Assembly (NCBI GenBank): GCA_020055645.1
Contig: CM034546.1
Span: forward strand, 63,488,001-63,552,000
Origin: Tomocerus qinae
Lineage: Eukaryota > Arthropoda > Collembola > Entomobryomorpha > Tomoceridae
DNA: 64,000 bases
Direction of reading: 5' to 3'
Within the stretch, counting starts at the first letter, position 1; each line of letters opens with the position of its first letter. The translations under genes were made by a program, and so were the position numbers. Under the pieces are notes generated by a model, which had not been told where the DNA came from, ran no database searches, and worked only from the letters and a program-made list of their open reading frames with translations. Shown here one piece after another: positions 7,262 to 23,712 of the stretch.

Positions 7262-7710
7262 ACATATAAGCATATACGCCCTATATATAAGCAGATATGC
7301 CCTATATATAAGCAGATATGCCCTATATATAAGCATATATGCCATATATATAAGCATATATGCCCTATATATAAGCATATATGCCATATATATAAGCATA
7401 TACGCCCTATATATAAGCATATACGCCCTATATATAAGCATATATGCCCTATATATAAGCATATATGCCCTATATATAAGCATATACGCCCTATATATAA
7501 GCCTATACGCCCTATATATAAGCCTATACGCCCTATATATAAGCCTATACGCCCTATATTTAAGCATATACGCCCTATATATAAGCATATACGCCCTATA
7601 TATAAGCATATACGCCCTATATATAAGCATATACGCCCTATATATAAGCATATATGCCCTATATATAAGCATATACGGCCCCTATATCAGCATATACGCC
7701 CTATGCAATT
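7262..7710. repeat. 21-bp minisatellite
   Basis: About 21 head-to-tail units whose core reads CATATACGCCCTATATATA followed by AG. Variants swap ATACGCC for ATATGCC or GCATATA for GCCTATA, in small runs. Because 21 is a multiple of three and the unit lacks stops, long open frames arise on both strands (plus 7241-7849, minus 7115-7672); they are artefacts of the repeat and not genes. Confidence 0.93.
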
Positions 7711-9099: not shown

Positions 9100-9352
9100 C
9101 CTTGTCATTTTACATCACACCGTAATTTTACATCATTCCGTAATTTTACATCATTTCGTCATTTTACATCCTTCCGTCATTTTACAATATTCCGTCATTT
9201 TACATCATTCCGTCATTTTACATCATTCCGTCATTTTACATCATTCCGTCATTTTACATCATTCCGTCATTTTACATCATTCCGTCATTTTACATCATTC
9301 CGTCATTTTACATCATTCCGTCATTTTACATCATTCCGTCATTTCATATTGC
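9100..9352. repeat. 18-bp minisatellite, block A
   Basis: About 14 units of CCGTCATTTTACATCATT, the first few imperfect and the later ones uniform. The 18-bp period gives a spurious open frame with a six-residue repeat. Confidence 0.93.
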
Positions 9353-9958
9353 CCCATATTTGTAAATAGATATGTCATAGTTTTAAATAAAGTCGTTATA
9401 TATAATAACGCCGTTATATATAATAACGCCGTTATATATAATAACGCCGTTATATATAATAACGCCGTTATTTTTAATAACGCCGTTATATATAATAACG
9501 CCGTTATATATAATAACGCCGTTATTTTTAATAACGCCGTTATTTTTAATAACGCCGTTATTTTTAATAACGCCGTTATTTTTAATAACGCCGTTATTTT
9601 TAATAACGCCGTTATTTTTAATAACGCCTTTATTTTTAATAACGCCTTTTTTTTAATAACGCCGTTATTTTTAATAACGCCGTTATTTTTAATAACGCCG
9701 TTATTTTTAATAACGCCTTTATTTTTAATAACGCCTTTTTTTTAATAACGCCGTTATTTTTAATAACGCCTTTTTTTTAATAACGCCGTTATTTTTAATA
9801 ACGCCGTTATTTTTAATAACGCCGTTATTTTTAATAACGCCGTTATTTTTAATAACGCCGTTATTTTTAATAACGCCGTTATTTTTAATAACGCCGTTAT
9901 TTTTAATAACGCCGTTATTTTTAATAACGCCGTTATTTTTAATAACGCCGTTATTAAA
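9353..9958. repeat. 18-bp minisatellite, block B, near-palindromic units
   Basis: After three or four transitional units the array changes to CCGTTATATATAATAACG, then to CCGTTATTTTTAATAACG, about 31 units in all, with some units one base shorter. The 18-bp phase is kept from block A. Each junction contains ATAACG-C-CGTTAT, a palindrome of 12 pairing bases around one central base. Open frames on both strands (plus 9074-9745, minus 9725-10054) come from the repeat. Confidence 0.93.
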
Positions 9959-12147: not shown

Positions 12148-12631
12148 ATTAGATAACCATTAATTTTTCTGTTACACTTGTTATTAGATGGCTAATTTAC
12201 TTTTCAGAAAAATTCGCTAGTAGATACGGCTGATTATTTTTAGTAGCATTATATAGTAGATATGGATGATTTATTTTTCAGTAACATTCGCTAATAGATA
12301 TGGCTGATTCACTTTTCCGTAGCAATGGTTAGTAGATATTGCTGACTTACTTTTCAGTAACATTGGTTAGTAGATATGGCTGATTTACTTTTCAGTAGCA
12401 TTGGTTAGTAGATATGGCTGATTTACTTTTCGGTAACATTTGTTAGTAGATATGGCTGATTTACTTTTCAGTAACATTTGTTCGTAGATATGGCTGATTT
12501 ACTTTTCAGTACCATTTGTTAGTAGATATGTTTGATTTACTTTGCAGTAAAATTTGTTAGTAGACATAGCTCATTTACTTTTCAGTAACATTTATTAGTA
12601 GATATTGCTGATTTACTTTTCAGTAACATTT
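12148..12631. repeat. 38-bp minisatellite, left part
   Basis: About 12 units with the core AGTAGATATGGCTGATTTAC followed by TTTTCAGTAACATTTGTT. The first units are worn, the later ones uniform. The array is cut at 12,631 by a transposon and resumes at 15,440 with the matching part of the unit. Confidence 0.9.
12628..12631. repeat. Target-site duplication ATTT, left copy
   Basis: ATTT directly before the terminal repeat, repeated at 15,440-15,443. Undisturbed units of the same minisatellite show the uninterrupted word CATTTATTAGTAG, which supports a 4-bp duplication. Confidence 0.65.
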
Positions 12632-13898
12632 GACGGGCTCAGTAGGATAGGGTCTTAGATATTAGCAAACAAATAATAAATTTTTAGCCTGTCTAAAGGA
12701 TGAGCTTATGGAATTGCAATGTCTGTTAGGCAACAGGATAACCCCGGAATATTGATTGTTAACCCTTTCAGCTGGGCAGGGAATTTAATTTTTTTAACGT
12801 TACTATGGGTATCTTTAATAAGTTATTTGAACTTATAATGGGCAACTAACACAAACGATCTCTACCCAAACCGTATGACACATCTAAATGCTAGGTTTCC
12901 CAAAGCGGGCGGTTTTCCTGGATATTATAATCTAATCTGGGTTGTCAAATGTTAGCTCTCAATCAAAATTAAATATTTTAGTAAATTGTAACATTTAAAA
13001 TTCTATTGATCATGAACAATATTATATTAATACAGTATATTAATGCAATTCACATTTAGCTAAGGATATTATTACAGAAAATTGAGAGAGGAGATCAATC
13101 TTTCCTCGAATTGACCGACGAATTACAAAAGAGTTGAATACACTCAAAACCAAACTTATTGTCTTTCAAATGATTTCATAATAGTAATTAATTATTATAC
13201 ATTTGCATGTCAGCTAAATCAATTCCTCGAGCTTTATCGTTGTGTTCTAGTCTATAGGTTTTATTTTATATTGCTCCGTTCTTCGGTAAGGTAAAGTGTC
13301 GGTCATTCCGAGCGTGCTCTTCTCTAGTAGAGATGGTCGCGACCTTTTTATCTTTCCATCGATGACTACCCCGTTGCTCATATGGCTCGTAAAAGGGTGG
13401 ACACCTCAACATTGTAATTTTTCTTTAACGAGTTTCGTAGGGGGATTTTTCCTATTCGATTTTAAAGTTTCAGCGTTTTGCTGCAAGCAAATTCAAGGTT
13501 TAGGGGATTGAAAAAATTGTCAGTGTAAACCGTATGGTTATTCATAAAATATTTTTCAGTTAATTCTATAAAAATGTCACCACCGTACCCAAATTTTTAG
13601 TGACAAGCTCTTTTAATAATTCATCGCCTTCGTATATTTTGCAAGCAGTATAAATTCCATAAGCACATCCATGCACTTATCTAATAGATTCTGCATTTTT
13701 AGAGTCTTTGTAGATTGACCACTGATTTATTTTGACCTTGACCTTTCTGACTGAGTCATCAAACAAACCCAATCCGTCGCGACGTTTTCTTTGTCTTTGC
13801 TGGGACATTTTCGAAATTTATTTGGTGATAATTAAAAGTTAATTGGACAGATAATGATTTTTTACCACGAAATTCTAATTTTATCTTTGACTAGAAAT

Positions 13899-18800: not shown

Positions 18801-19400
18801 ATCATACACTCAATCATATTATCCTAGGCCCTACAAATGCCTGCCGATGTTTTTGTCAAATCATTTCCTAACTTAGCTCTAATTAATAGAATGGTGCTCA
18901 TTTCAATAACCATGATTTGTCATTCGCCTACATCTACCTCAACTCACAAATGAGTGATATCTCCATGTATTACAAATATTGCAAATGCATCAGCTGAATG
19001 AAGCTATGAACTACACAAAACGTATGATTGCCGTCTCTCGTTAAAACACGCACACAGGGCACTACACAAACCAACAAATGAAATGGTTTGCAACTTCAAC
19101 TTCAGTTCTGACAACCCAAAACTATAACGCAATTTAAAATGCAACCAGGGAACGCTACATTATCCCATAAAATCCGCATGATTAATTTCATAATAAACAC
19201 TGTTTTTAAAAGACTTTCAAACTTATTCGAAACTATAAGTAAACGTTAAAACATTGTTGAGTCATTTCCAGTCATTCTAAAATATTCAAAATTATTCGGA
19301 AAGTTGCGAAAAGTATGGTTTAACTAAAATTTATTCAATTTCCTCTTTATGAGATTTTTAAACATAAATAATCAAAGAAGCATAATTATTTAATACAGCG
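15882..19400 (+). repeat. 1.35-kb satellite array, left segment (units 1-3)
   Basis: Units begin, by the arbitrary landmark ATTTTGCAAAAATTAATTAC, at 15,882, 17,234 and 18,587, so the period is 1,352-1,353 bp. The third unit is cut by the Transib element at CAGCG (19,396-19,400) and resumes at 23,708. Unit 1 carries variants (TTTGTAACTTC, CAAAGCTATAAC, CCCACAAAATCC) that are rare in the interior but return near the right edge. The short frames (about 65 codons, minus strand) are open only in a few copies, so the unit is non-coding. Confidence 0.95.
19396..19400. repeat. Transib target-site duplication CAGCG, left copy
   Basis: CAGCG precedes the element (one extra C before the heptamer) and recurs at 23,708-23,712. 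Unoccupied satellite units read TAATACAGCGTTATG with a single CAGCG, which proves the 5-bp duplication. Five GC-rich bases are the rule for Transib. Confidence 0.93.
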
Positions 19401-19401
19401 C

Positions 19402-19440
19402 CACAATGTACATTTTCGTTCTCAAAATGTGACATAATTC
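19402..19440 (+). repeat. Transib left terminal inverted repeat with heptamer CACAATG
   Basis: Begins CACAATG, the usual Transib terminal heptamer (CACWATG). About three quarters of positions match the right end, including CATTTTC, AAAAT and GACATAATTC. An A-tract (CTCAAAATG) starts 12 bases after the heptamer. Confidence 0.9.
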
Positions 19441-20807
19441 CGTAGATGGCTATACTTAGATATTTACAACGATATATAAAATTATTTTTTGTCTATGATA
19501 GTTAAGAAATCATATCAGCGAATGAAAACGTACTTAGTCATAACAAGTTGAACCAACCGACATCCGGTGGGAAAGTCACCCGACAACTGGATATAGAAAT
19601 GTGGATGTAAAAATTTTGGTAGTAAAACGAAGTAGGCCTTTTAAAATCAAAATAATAATAGAATAATAAAATAATAAAAGAGTAGCAGAGAAATGTCCCT
19701 GATTATTAAAACCCGAATGTCGATACAAAATAATGGCATCATTTAAAGTTTAGTATAAAAAGCTATTTACCATTTGTTAAATATTTAAGTTGTTCATGTT
19801 TTATTGATTTCGTAAGTTTATCAATGTTGTATGGCGCTGATATTAAGTCAGCTTAGCACAGTGACTCCAGCCAGCAGCTGAGAAAGTATAATTAGAAAAA
19901 TAAGCAAAAATTCTTTCAAACTGATTAAATTTCCCAATAACTATCGCATTACGTATTACATTGTTTTAACCTCGGATCCATTCATTGAGTTGCTCAATGA
20001 AAAAGACAGTGCCTTTCCTTTAGGGAAAATGAGACTGGTTTGGTGTGGAAACCTATACCACACACATCGCATTGTTTTTAAAAGGAGAAGTCACTTTCTT
20101 TTTTATTTTTGACTCAACGAATAATGGAGCCAAAGTTAAAAGAATCATATATTAAATATTACTACTTTTTTCATACTTAAAGAAAATCAAATATTGAAAA
20201 ACGACATACATAGTGGTAGTAGCTAATTTAAATTAGATTGGTTGTTATTAGATTAGAATTAAGGGTCCAACATCCAATAAAAACTTATATGACAAATATG
20301 AACAACTAAATGGTGGAAGTTACCTTTAAAATCACTCAGTTTAGTTTATGTAGAAATAAATGTGTCTCAAAAACGTATGCAAGCGCAAGACATGATGCCA
20401 TATAGTTAACATTAAATTAATTACCTATCTTGTATAGTGTAAATCTAATAGTAATGCATAAATTAAAAAACCTAAACCATGATTTTTTACTGCTCATATT
20501 AAAATCAATTGTCTCCCTCTGGTGGGAAACTTTGTTGAAAAAATAATTGAAAATTGTCTCTTTGGTTTATTTTTTAGTAGGAATTTAATGCTTTATTAAA
20601 GCCATAAAACTTTTATTAACAACTTTATACGAGCACATTAAAATAAATTAATTGAGATATTACAAATCTAAGAGATGTAAAAATTGGTAACAATCTGTAT
20701 CGCCTTACATATTGGCAGATTAACTTAAGATTGTAAGGTAAAGTTAATTATGAAATAAAGCTAGGATAAATAAATGGTCAAGCAGGTCAGATTATTTTGC
20801 TTCTTCT

Positions 20808-21863
20808 CTAAATATTTGGAATTGAAAAAATTTCGTCCTCACAATCAAGAATAATGTCATCTAACTCTATTTCGTAGGAATCTTCTTCATTGTGTTCTAA
20901 AAATAGAACTTCGCCACTTCTTTCCGTTTCAACACATTCCGGTAAATCTAATAAATCCATAACTTCATTCGGATATGGTAATCTTTTTTGAGACTTCAGT
21001 CGGTTATTCAACGACAAACTTGAAATTAATGGATCGGATGTATCCAGTGATCTGCAAAATACATCCCACAAATTGTCTTTTCTGCTGGTTTTACGAGCAT
21101 TAAAAAGTCTGTATCTTTTATAGTATTTATTCCGAGATTCTCCACCCTCTTCACCCATGACCCCCAATGGCAAAACGCTGTTTTTAATGATATCTCCTCC
21201 ATGAATTAACACCTTGTGCACTGTAACAGGTAAATAGAACCAGTCATAGTGGAGAAGATAAAATTCATATAAATTCTTGCAAAAAATGTCAAACCTTTCT
21301 GCATGTATTGGTAGATGAGCAGAAAGTGTGATTAGGATTGTTCGCAAATCCTTAATTAAACGGACATTTAGACCTAAAATATCAGCAAATTCTTCAAAAT
21401 TTGCAAAAGCTCTTCTTGCTGTATTTCCGTCGTTACTGTTGCCACTTCCCCCAGGATTTGGGTAATCGACTCTTAATCCCATTTTTTGCGACAGCGTTTC
21501 CTGTAAATGTATTTTACGGTCTTTGTATTCGGATTTATTGCATCTCCATTTCTTTTTTTCCAATTTATATGAAAGGTGAAGGCAGAATTCAAAAAACCGT
21601 ATCCATGCATGAAGAAGAGAAATTCCATATTGTAAGGAATCGGGTGTTGATTTAAATTTTTTTGTGCCCACATTTTTCGAAATATTAAAATCACTAGGAT
21701 TAGATTTGCAGAGTGGGCATGTCTGTACTGAAACAGTTTTAAGAACTGTGCTTAAAACTTTTCCATCGACGATAGTCATGTGCATCTCAAAATTAATTTT
21801 TAATTTGTGTTCCTTGTTTAGTTCAATTTCAAAAGAGGTTAAATTTTCAATTTCATCATCCAT
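20808..21863 (-). pseudogene. Transib transposase, C-terminal part (second D, E, zinc residues)
   Basis: A 351-residue frame covering the second half of a RAG1-like DDE transposase. TIVDGKV holds the second catalytic Asp (residue 33). CPLC (Cys49, Cys52) matches the RAG1 zinc-binding CxxC, and HKVLIHG (His216, His221) matches its HxxxxH partner. The catalytic Glu is in GEEGGESRNK (Glu242), followed by YYKRYRLFNARK and a TSDPLISSL segment, which parallels RAG1 ESGNK ... RRFRKMNAR ... TSKYL. GSGNSNDGNTARR (about 138-151) matches the Transib/RAG1 GN(T/F)AR(R/K) motif. The Met used here is only the first ATG after a frame change near an A7 run (about 21,870); it is not a true start. Confidence 0.88.
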
Positions 21864-21986
21864 AAGTTTTTTTCAAGCTTGATCAAATCAGAGTTTTCTT
21901 TCACGAATTTCAATTTTACAGGGCGACAAAATCTTATTGACTGAGGAGTCTAATTTTGCCAGTACACTGTACCTGGATCTTCCTCA
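21864..21986 (-). pseudogene. Frameshifted linker of the Transib transposase
   Basis: The 123 bp between the two long frames still code, in a third frame, for Transib-like residues: TTLIPLMLTSNDEED begins inside the end of the first frame, then VYWQN, one TAG stop, and SIRFCRPVKLKF. These match the family segment (PL.L ... WQN ... RFCRPI) that lies between the two catalytic Asp residues. So the gap is a pair of frame changes plus a stop, and not an intron. One frame change lies at a homopolymer A run and could be a sequencing error. Confidence 0.7.
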
Positions 21987-22994
21987 TCATTGGAAGTCAA
22001 CATAAGAGGAATTAGTGTAGTTGCAAATAAATGAGTCATTTGGTTGCCCTGAATCTGTTTCTCCAAATTTGATTTTGTACTGTGACTGGCCTGAACTTCC
22101 ATCAAAACCCCAGGAACAAATTAATACACAATCAGAAAAAATTTTCCCTTTGCTTTGGAGGTCATTAAATATGCTTTCAGGATTAATGTCAATAATGCGC
22201 CGAGCTGTATGTTGTAGCCAATCCTGTAGTGGCACAGAAGCAATTGTTTCTGAAATTTGCAATGTTTGTATAGCTGGACGACAATTTAATTTTTCCATTG
22301 CAATAATGTTGTAGTTGGGCAAAAAGTTGTACCCACTCTTTTTTGCGCAATCTCTAATTTTGTTATAGACAGAAACAGAAATACCTGTATCCAAAATTAA
22401 AGCCAAGGCAGATGTAGGGGAACATTTTTTAAAGCCATCGGGTGTAGAGTTGATTTTTTTAAGATTTTTTTTCGCCCGATTTGGAGTCATTAAAGACTTC
22501 TTAATAATGCTTGCAAAGGGTCTTTTACTAGGGGATCTTTTTGCTAATTGTGCGGTAGCTTTCAGTATTTGATCAGTTGGCATTTTTTCCACCAATATTA
22601 CTAAGGCATTTATATGTCGCAGTTTTTGTCGTTCGCCTTTGTCCGACCAATCTTTTGACGGACGACCAGCATTTTTCTTTGAAATTTTTGGCTGTAAATT
22701 TGTTTTTACTCGAAATTTTTTGGTCAACCAATCAGAATGTTTGATTTTGAAATTCTCCCAAGATAATTTTTCAGCTTTAATGATTTTACAGTAGTCACTT
22801 TTTACCTTTGCGATTCGCCGTTGAATTATTGTCTTTTCCTTTGCAGAGATGTTTTCTTCCAATTGCGGCAAAAGCTTTCCCATGCAGTCTTCGGTTATTT
22901 GTCTCGAATTCCTGCCATTTTTTCTAAAAATTTCTATGAGATCTTCATGCGTGGTGTTCGTATCGAAATAATCTTCGTCATAGTAAGCTGCCAT
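21987..22994 (-). pseudogene. Transib transposase, N-terminal part with first catalytic Asp
   Basis: A 335-residue frame starting MAAYYDEDYF. A basic, Lys-rich N-terminal half (about 60-190) includes the GRPSKDWSDKGERQK segment that precedes the DNA-contacting region in Transib proteins. A middle part (SALALILD ... VYNKIRDCAKKSGYNFLPNY) follows, and then CSWGFDGSSGQSQYK with the first catalytic Asp at residue 298 (22,101-22,103), corresponding to the family motif WGCDGS..S.YK and to RAG1 Asp600. The last 17 or so residues (from about NYTN) are out of frame relative to the family. The start is supported by its position and by the length of the whole protein. Confidence 0.85.
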
Positions 22995-23667
22995 AGTAAA
23001 ATGTCCACCAAGACGAAAATACTTTATGCGTCTTAAAAATAAAACCGTTTGTCAAATGAACAACAAAGCGTCAAGTTGATTTCATGGTTTTTGTCTGCAT
23101 TGCGAAAACAGGATACGATTAACATGACATTGAATTTAGAATTTTTTATTTGGGTGGGGCTAAAATAGTTAATTTTCACACTATTATAAGTTATTTATTA
23201 GTAACATTTTGTTTTCAGCGAATTTCGTTAAGCAAAATATATTTTTTCAACAAAAAGTATAAATAGGTATGAGTTTCGCGGGTTAAGCAGGGAAATCTAC
23301 AAATAAGAATGATATAAGGTTCATATGGCTGTCGGGTACCTTTTCAGACTCACTCCCAAATTTTAACCATGCCAAACTCGGCTTACGAAAAATTTCGGTT
23401 AAATTTGATTTCATGAAAAAATTCTGCAGGGTCATTTCTACATTTTTGATTCAACTTCAAGCCCCCGTACTTTGGAGTACAGAGTTAAAACCTTAAATGA
23501 AGTTTATAATGTGAAATCCCACACAAAAATATTTTAAGGTTTACTTTGGTCGTATTTTTACTTTGCTTAACGATAATAAAATTCAATAAAATTTAAAATC
23601 AACATGGTTTAGACATTTATTTGTCATTTTAAATAATAAAACATTGAAAATCAATAAATATTTTTGC

Positions 23668-23707
23668 GAATTATGTCGAATTTTAAGCATAGAAAATGGA
23701 CACTGTG
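23668..23707 (-). repeat. Transib right terminal inverted repeat with heptamer CACAGTG
   Basis: Read inward from 23,707 it starts CACAGTG, then TCCATTTTC, and ends GACATAATTC, matching the left end at about three quarters of positions. CACAGTG is identical to the consensus heptamer of vertebrate recombination signal sequences. Confidence 0.9.
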
Positions 23708-23712
23708 CAGCG
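23708..23712. repeat. Transib target-site duplication CAGCG, right copy
   Basis: The CAGCG immediately after the right heptamer continues as TTATGATAAGCTG, exactly as in empty satellite units. Confidence 0.93.

Follow-up and report, generated by a model that had tools for sequence, protein, structure and literature searches.

The window, a stretch of 64,000 nucleotides from Tomocerus qinae, carries a Transib DNA transposon of 4.3 kb, spanning 19402-23707, inside one unit of a 1351-bp satellite. The features of the locus are as follows.

15523-63218, forward strand: 1351-bp satellite array with decayed edges, holding the insertion and 30 empty sites
19396-19400, forward strand: left copy of the target duplication, CAGCG (from the sequence and the 30 empty satellite sites)
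19401, forward strand: extra C between the left duplication and the heptamer, palindromic to the flank G
19402-19408, forward strand: left end heptamer CACAATG, on the 3' side of the transposase gene
19402-19440, forward strand: left terminal inverted repeat, CACAATGTACATTTTC...GACATAATTC
20808-21872, reverse strand: C-terminal open stretch of the transposase, 354 aa stop to stop, with the second catalytic D (21765-21767) and the E (21138-21140)
21873-21986, reverse strand: central part of the transposase gene, interrupted here but open in the 37.67M copy
21987-23051, reverse strand: N-terminal open stretch of the transposase, 354 aa stop to stop, with the first catalytic D (22101-22103)
23668-23707, reverse strand: right terminal inverted repeat, read inward, CACAGTGTCCATTTTC...GACATAATTC
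23701-23707, reverse strand: right end heptamer CACAGTG (inward), on the 5' side of the transposase gene
23708-23712, forward strand: right copy of the target duplication, CAGCG (from the sequence and the empty satellite sites)

The two terminal inverted repeats have 14 of their 16 outermost bases in common, and the inner GACATAATTC is common to both. The array surrounding them (~15.5-63.2 kb), whose 29 whole units are on average 99.4% identical to the consensus, preserves the target as it was before the insertion: the unoccupied site AATTATTTAATA-CAGCG-TTATGATAAGCTG occurs exactly 30 times, a 31st match being the right junction itself, while in 100 shuffles of the window the 18-base empty site was matched 0.05 times on average and once at most. 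The joined flanks of the element match 30 near-full array stretches with 98.2-100% identity, the weaker matches (81% and 91%) corresponding to the decayed array edges; a search with one satellite unit gave at least 4 matches, all to the left of the element, and missed the right-hand units in the window. A sequence-only reading of this DNA had described a right end reading CACAGTG inward, identical to the vertebrate RSS heptamer, and a left end reading CACAATG, and both are present (23707-23701 and 19402-19408). It had also claimed a CAGCG duplication proved by about 30 empty satellite sites, which holds with 30 exact sites, except that the left duplication does not touch the heptamer: the extra C at 19401 had been overlooked. 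CACAGTG or CACTGTG has two occurrences in the window, at 19857 and 23701, where ~8 are expected at equal base frequencies and ~3 at the G+C of the window; since the motif is not rare by itself, 23701-23707 is identified as an element end by the duplication, by the empty sites and by the sister copies. Scans of the window with Rfam (gathering scores) and for tRNAs gave no matches.

The search for other copies with the same inverted repeats, which had been set beforehand, found two near-full sisters, C1:37665072-37669395 and C1:84260567-84264880, with the same two heptamers as the window copy and with target duplications of their own (CAACG and CAGGG). CACAATG and CACAGTG form the ends of 3/3 near-full copies, and both ends of the element are reproduced by two dispersed sisters, whose junctions were read from the assembly. 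Between the window copy and the 37.67M copy, 100 of 4298 aligned bases differ, which indicates fairly recent movement. In all three near-full copies of the family the transposase frame is interrupted, and the analysis found no copy that could be a functional source.

The C-terminal stretch of the transposase matches 6pqn_A, an entry named DNA-mediated transposase, with E = 1.2e-50 over residues 2-312 of the stretch, and the N-terminal stretch, whose plausible start Met lies at 22992-22994, with E = 3.5e-9 over residues 211-339; for the first of this pair, the best-scoring RAG1L and RAG1 chains reach 7.8e-4 and 2.3e-3, respectively. The Pfam RAG1 model scores weakly (E = 8.7e-4, 18 bits, under the cut-off of 25). 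We take the 6pqn chain to be the HzTransib transposase of Helicoverpa zea. The motifs WGFDG, IVDGK and EEGGESRNK align with its D, D and E, at chain positions 109, 208 and 419, each of them 17 below the published D126, D225 and E436 (available part of PMC6941560). No frame of at least 150 aa, stop to stop, other than the two transposase halves exists in the element, and among such frames, unspliced, neither a RAG2-like partner nor convergent RAG1L and RAG2L genes were seen. The window copy is decayed, with its transposase gene interrupted and its catalytic residues in place.

We consider, with a probability of about 95%, that the locus is a copy, now decayed, of an autonomous Transib element that entered a unit of a pre-existing satellite array by cut-and-paste transposition. 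The ends, the duplication, the empty sites, the sister copies, the kinship of the transposase, its catalytic residues and its interrupted gene are all shown here. On this account a DDE transposase, supplied by the window copy before its decay or by another copy, recognised ends starting with CACANTG, cleaved at the outer border of the heptamer, probably by a nick and a flank hairpin by analogy with HzTransib and RAG biochemistry, and attached the two ends to the target strands at points staggered by 5 bp, which produced the CAGCG duplication. Counted against it is the left duplication lying one base away from the heptamer, a gap that plain single-step insertion does not predict. The Transib identity proposed from the sequence is confirmed by the match to 6pqn_A, the CAC-first ends and the 5-bp duplications of the sister copies; this is a kind of element already known in insects and related to the RAG recombinase of antibody-gene shuffling.

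It compares with the closest known systems as follows: (i) with Hztransib (Helicoverpa zea; PDB 6pqn series) it shares transposase homology with D/D/E at matching places, as well as terminal inverted repeats and a 5-bp duplication (available part of PMC1852546), but it has another host, is 4.3 kb long versus 3518 bp, has an interrupted transposase and carries one extra base at the left junction; (ii) like the Transib families with RSS-like heptamers (as far as the accessible text of PMC8355894 goes) it has CAC-first heptamers and a single RAG1-core-like gene, but neither a convincing nonamer nor a 12/23 spacer pair; (iii) with the RSS of RAG1-RAG2 and with ProtoRAG it has in common CACAGTG at one end and DDE chemistry by descent, but it lacks a visible RAG2-like frame and a nonamer rule, and the protein similarity of its transposase to RAG1 is marginal. 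Transib families with RSS-like heptamers were reportedly described by Kapitonov and Jurka in 2005.

The weight that had been placed on a perfect V(D)J heptamer is not sustained by the rest of the genome. Five pattern searches, with heptamer bases 4 and 5 open, the family bases behind fixed and up to 3 mismatches allowed (none in one of the five), gave 53 distinct Transib ends, and the proposed tally of the two heptamers came out at 20 CACAGTG against 18 CACAATG, the remainder being 8 CACACTG, 2 CACATTG, 1 CACAGTA and 4 decayed. Among these ends CACAGTG is the commonest of several heptamer forms used by Transibs in this genome. The fifth base is A, G, C or T across the genome and differs between ends and copies, also within families; the two heptamers are swapped in the 58.91M copy, from a related subfamily, and CACAGTG stands at both ends in 5/24 complete elements. 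Given this variability, we reject the idea that CACAGTG marks a particularly close relationship to RAG. As for the nonamer, no 12/23 pair (ACAAAAACC after a 12- or 23-bp spacer) was found at the ends of the window element, the best scores being 6/9 at spacer 23 (left) and 24 (right), with uncorrected shuffle p values of ~0.02 and ~0.05, and 5/9 and 4/9 at spacers 11-13 (p ~0.10 and 0.53). The Transib nonamer AAAAAAATC, used in the same comparison, fits another family, 126.7M, at 7/9 and 8/9 with spacer 22. A literature search for a Transib heptamer CACAATG found no paper; Transib heptamers identical to the RSS heptamer are already in print (available parts of PMC6941560 and of PMC8355894, the latter for some families). 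The reading of the locus as a RAG-like (RAGL) transposon, or as an exceptional Transib bearing a V(D)J-type signal and a close stand-in for the RAG ancestor, can point to the consensus RSS heptamer and to the sub-cut-off Pfam RAG1 score, but it is already contradicted: the protein fits Transib far better, the two transposase halves are the only frames of at least 150 aa, there is no nonamer pair at 12/23 and the fifth heptamer base is not constant within families.

The extra C at 19401 is absent from both sister copies and from all 30 empty sites. A target origin is thereby rejected, since 30/30 empty sites read CAGCGT. Across the genome we tabulated 24 complete Transib insertions, whose 5-bp duplication has C as its first base in 15 and G as its last in 17, and matches at 4/5 bases in one (59.25M); a GC bias of the target has been reported for Transib and RAG (accessible text of PMC8289069). 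The table omits loci with a duplication or an end that is missing, decayed or beyond the sequence covered: L012, L013, L018, L020 (= L075), L022, L023, L059, L060, L062, L077, L078, L079-L083, L085, L087, L088, L089 and the 12.0M and 86.9M copies. Among these, L012 (86% over 332 bases) has a left heptamer CACAGTG with a C directly before it and no right end within 1.8 kb beyond the left end, three possible duplications having been tried, and the ends of L018, L020, L022 and L023 could not be cleanly parsed.

In the 24 insertions, 43/48 junctions are exact; the other 5/48, spread over 4 elements, show 1-2 additional bases, which are palindromic to the flank in every case. When up to 3 additional bases are tolerated on either side, the chance of a false 5-bp duplication is ~16 in 1024 for each undecided element. 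A simple point insertion or sequencing slip, with the other extra-base junctions unrelated, would be trivial for one base in one copy, but it is unlikely: the indel rate inside the elements of one sampled family (4 events over 9 copies and 561 columns) predicts 0.04 inserted junctions in 48, where 5 are seen, although this rate comes from one family and from copies of differing age. Still less probable is a 6-bp duplication, CAGCGT, with the base beside the left heptamer mutated from T to C. Duplications of other lengths occur occasionally with such enzymes, but T stands at that place in all 30 empty sites of the window, the 42.00M and C2:0.96M copies would both require the same kind of mutation in that position, once more yielding C, and exact 6-bp duplications occur in 0/24 insertions. 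A donor flank base carried along is disfavoured, because the duplications mostly end in G on either side and G would be expected, not C.

We are left with two readings, hairpin resealing and a duplicated heptamer C, which we consider about equally likely as the origin of the extra C. The first base of the heptamer may have been duplicated, by repair of the integration gap or by later slippage and with no hairpin, a credible account at somewhat under even odds; it accounts for the four single-base additions no less well than the palindrome, since all four are C, the base with which the element itself begins. Indeed, the flank base is G in all four, so that both readings predict the same base and these cases discriminate weakly between them. 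The sole junction that separates them is the right end of the 64.40M copy, with an extra GT palindromic to the flank (AAC, then GT) instead of the C or CA that heptamer duplication would give, although this junction belongs to a single old copy, which shares 92.9% identity with the C2:2.740M copy. Tentatively, and at rather less than an even chance, the extra C and the four other extra-base junctions could instead be natural 'open-and-shut' joints with 1-2 palindromic (P) nucleotides: the transposase would cut one end, leaving a hairpinned flank as RAG does, and this flank would be rejoined to the same end with the P nucleotides added. Among the titles listed by literature searches on open-and-shut, hairpin, P-nucleotide and footprint junctions, none deals with such joints in Transib.

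Some of the omitted loci have lost sequence at the right end: the heptamer exactly in L078, with TACCT intact on both sides, 9 bp beside CACCA in L077 and ~196 bp beside ATAAT in the 12.0M copy. These losses fit resealing after a one-ended cut, and plain microhomology deletions too.

As a Transib, the window copy adds little beyond one more family. The heptamers of this family vary at the one base that separates CACAATG from the RSS form CACAGTG, which speaks against inferring descent from one matching G. If the open-and-shut reading is true, an arthropod germline preserves remnants of a V(D)J-type intermediate. Should the extra-base junctions be upheld in more copies, ordinary assemblies alone would let the hairpin-resealing scars of a RAG relative be counted, and such scars would directly record chemistry that this relative has in common with V(D)J recombination.

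The 4.3-kb Transib element of the window lies inside one unit of a long satellite array, and its junctions can be laid out as follows.

Features of the element and its surroundings (window positions)
15523-63218: satellite array, 47 kb, 1351-bp unit, 31% GC, without long frames
19396-19400: left target duplication, CAGCG, read from the sequence
19401: single extra C between left CAGCG and left heptamer
19402-19408: left heptamer, CACAATG, read from the sequence
23701-23707: right end, CACTGTG as written, read from the sequence
23708-23712: right target duplication, CAGCG, directly after the right end

Both flanks belong to one unit of the 1351-bp satellite (mean identity to consensus 99.4% over 29 whole units), in which the site TACAGCGTTATGATAAGC has 31 matches with up to three mismatches: 30 are exact and one, with a single mismatch, is the right junction. 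With these 30 exact sites, the unoccupied target and its 5-bp duplication are established directly. The sequence-only reading was therefore right about the CAGCG duplication with some 30 empty sites, and the ends CACAATG and CACAGTG are borne out; it overlooked the C at 19401 between left duplication and heptamer. Transib occupies only one of the satellite units in the window, so either the element inserted after the array had been amplified, or the amplification did not spread it. To the left of the satellite lie several short-unit tandem arrays, with units of 18, 21, 29-31 and 38 bp, at 241-993, 7264-7704, 9104-9955 and 12165-12632.

Searches of the genome with the outer 300 bases of each side recovered two near-full copies (at 37.67 and 84.26 Mb), one diverged left end (16.495 Mb, 86% identity), one partial left stretch (71.797 Mb, 75%) and eight right ends (69-71%). 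The proposed check on the ends of other copies gave the same two heptamers as in the window: both near-full copies start with CACAATG and end with CACTGTG, and have CAACG in one case and CAGGG in the other directly next to these heptamers. The window and 37.67 Mb copies differ at 100 of 4298 aligned bases. On its minus strand the window copy has two open stretches of 354 codons each, both matching the solved Transib-type transposase chain 6pqn_A (E = 1.2e-50 and 3.5e-9), and all three catalytic residues line up. RAG1L (7.8e-4) and RAG1 (2.3e-3) chains come next for the first stretch; for the second, no RAG1 chain is among the matches listed up to E = 1. The catalytic residues described for Hztransib, D126, D225 and E436 (PMC6941560), each differ by the same 17 positions from their aligned counterparts in the chain, by hand count on the alignments. 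The window copy's gene is interrupted; the 37.67 Mb copy is open across this interruption, yet has a stop elsewhere, and the 84.26 Mb copy also has a stop. Transposase matches fall on sequence C1 (140 of 334 Mb, 42% of the genome) in 34/40 cases in one search and 52/58 in another, these being fragments that overlap between searches and are not independent. PF00379, the arthropod cuticle family, has 114 matches in this genome and none in 14 control genomes, on which ground the host is regarded as an arthropod.

The V(D)J-type heptamer claimed for the right end is present, but fails as a distinction, since CACAGTG is the commonest form among 53 distinct Transib ends: CACAGTG 20, CACAATG 18, CACACTG 8, CACATTG 2, CACAGTA 1 and four decayed (TTCAGTG, GACAGTG, GTTAGTG, ATATGTG). 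This tally, from five pattern searches (12, 23, 7, 7 and 7 ends, less 3 duplicates), is informative mainly on bases 4 and 5, the patterns having fixed the others. In a related subfamily, 6/7 ends of one kind carry CACAATG and 6/7 of the other kind CACAGTG, both exceptions belonging to a single element, at 58.91 Mb, with its two heptamers swapped; in the family of the 23-end search, one kind of end reads CACAATG in six copies and CACAGTG in three. CACAGTG at one Transib end is thus usual, but not fixed, in this genome. The G tends to occur at the transposase 5' end (3/3 copies in the window's family; in the other subfamily, two of the three copies that carry a transposase, these three being C9, 129.0M and 58.91M). 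Unbroken frames of 782, 774 and 766 codons, measured between stops, occur in three other Transib lineages (L056, L057, L058), in each case between ends that adjoin exact 5-bp duplications; CACAGTG stands at both ends of two of them, and the third has CACATTG and CACACTG.

The Transib nonamer is AAAAAAATC. A 12/23 nonamer pair was looked for at both ends of the window copy and none was found, the best matches being 6/9 at spacer 23 (left) and 6/9 at spacer 24 (right), with p ~0.02 and ~0.05, uncorrected for four tests per end. An inner block, GACATAATTC, is common to both ends at nearly equal distance from each, so the ends are symmetric. At locus L058 (474-5727), A-rich nonamers occur at both ends, 22 bp from the heptamer, and agree with the Transib nonamer at 7/9 and 8/9 bases.

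Of 24 complete insertions tabulated across several of the genome's Transib families, 19 show an exact 5-bp duplication immediately next to both heptamers, one matches at 4/5 duplication bases and four carry extra bases; an exact 6-bp duplication was found in 0/24. By junction, 43/48 are exact and five have additions.

Extra bases at Transib junctions
Window copy, left: C
42.00 Mb copy, right (inward): C
C2:0.96 Mb copy, left: C
64.40 Mb copy, left: C; right (inward): GT

Each of the five additions reads as the reverse complement of the flank bases next to it. Interior indels in one sampled family (4 events across 9 copies and 561 columns, a rate of 0.00079 per site and copy) predict 0.04 inserted junctions in 48 versus the 5 observed, a rough yardstick since families differ in age.

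For RAG, PMC5520896 describes hairpinning as a reversible step that yields open-and-shut joints, and Hztransib forms flank hairpins (PMC6941560); a one-ended cut with hairpin resealing may thus account for all five junctions (probability about 0.38). The extra C could instead be a duplicate of the heptamer's first C, a reading we place somewhat short of even odds: it accounts for the four C cases as well as resealing does, and only the GT at the right of the 64.40 Mb copy tells it from hairpin resealing. Some Transib copies have lost one end beside an intact target duplication: the heptamer only (L078, right), 9 bp (L077, right) or ~196 bp (12.0 Mb copy, L091/L092).

The left-junction oddity, missed by the sequence-only reading, is small and testable, and the element itself is a real but ordinary Transib copy of a known kind.
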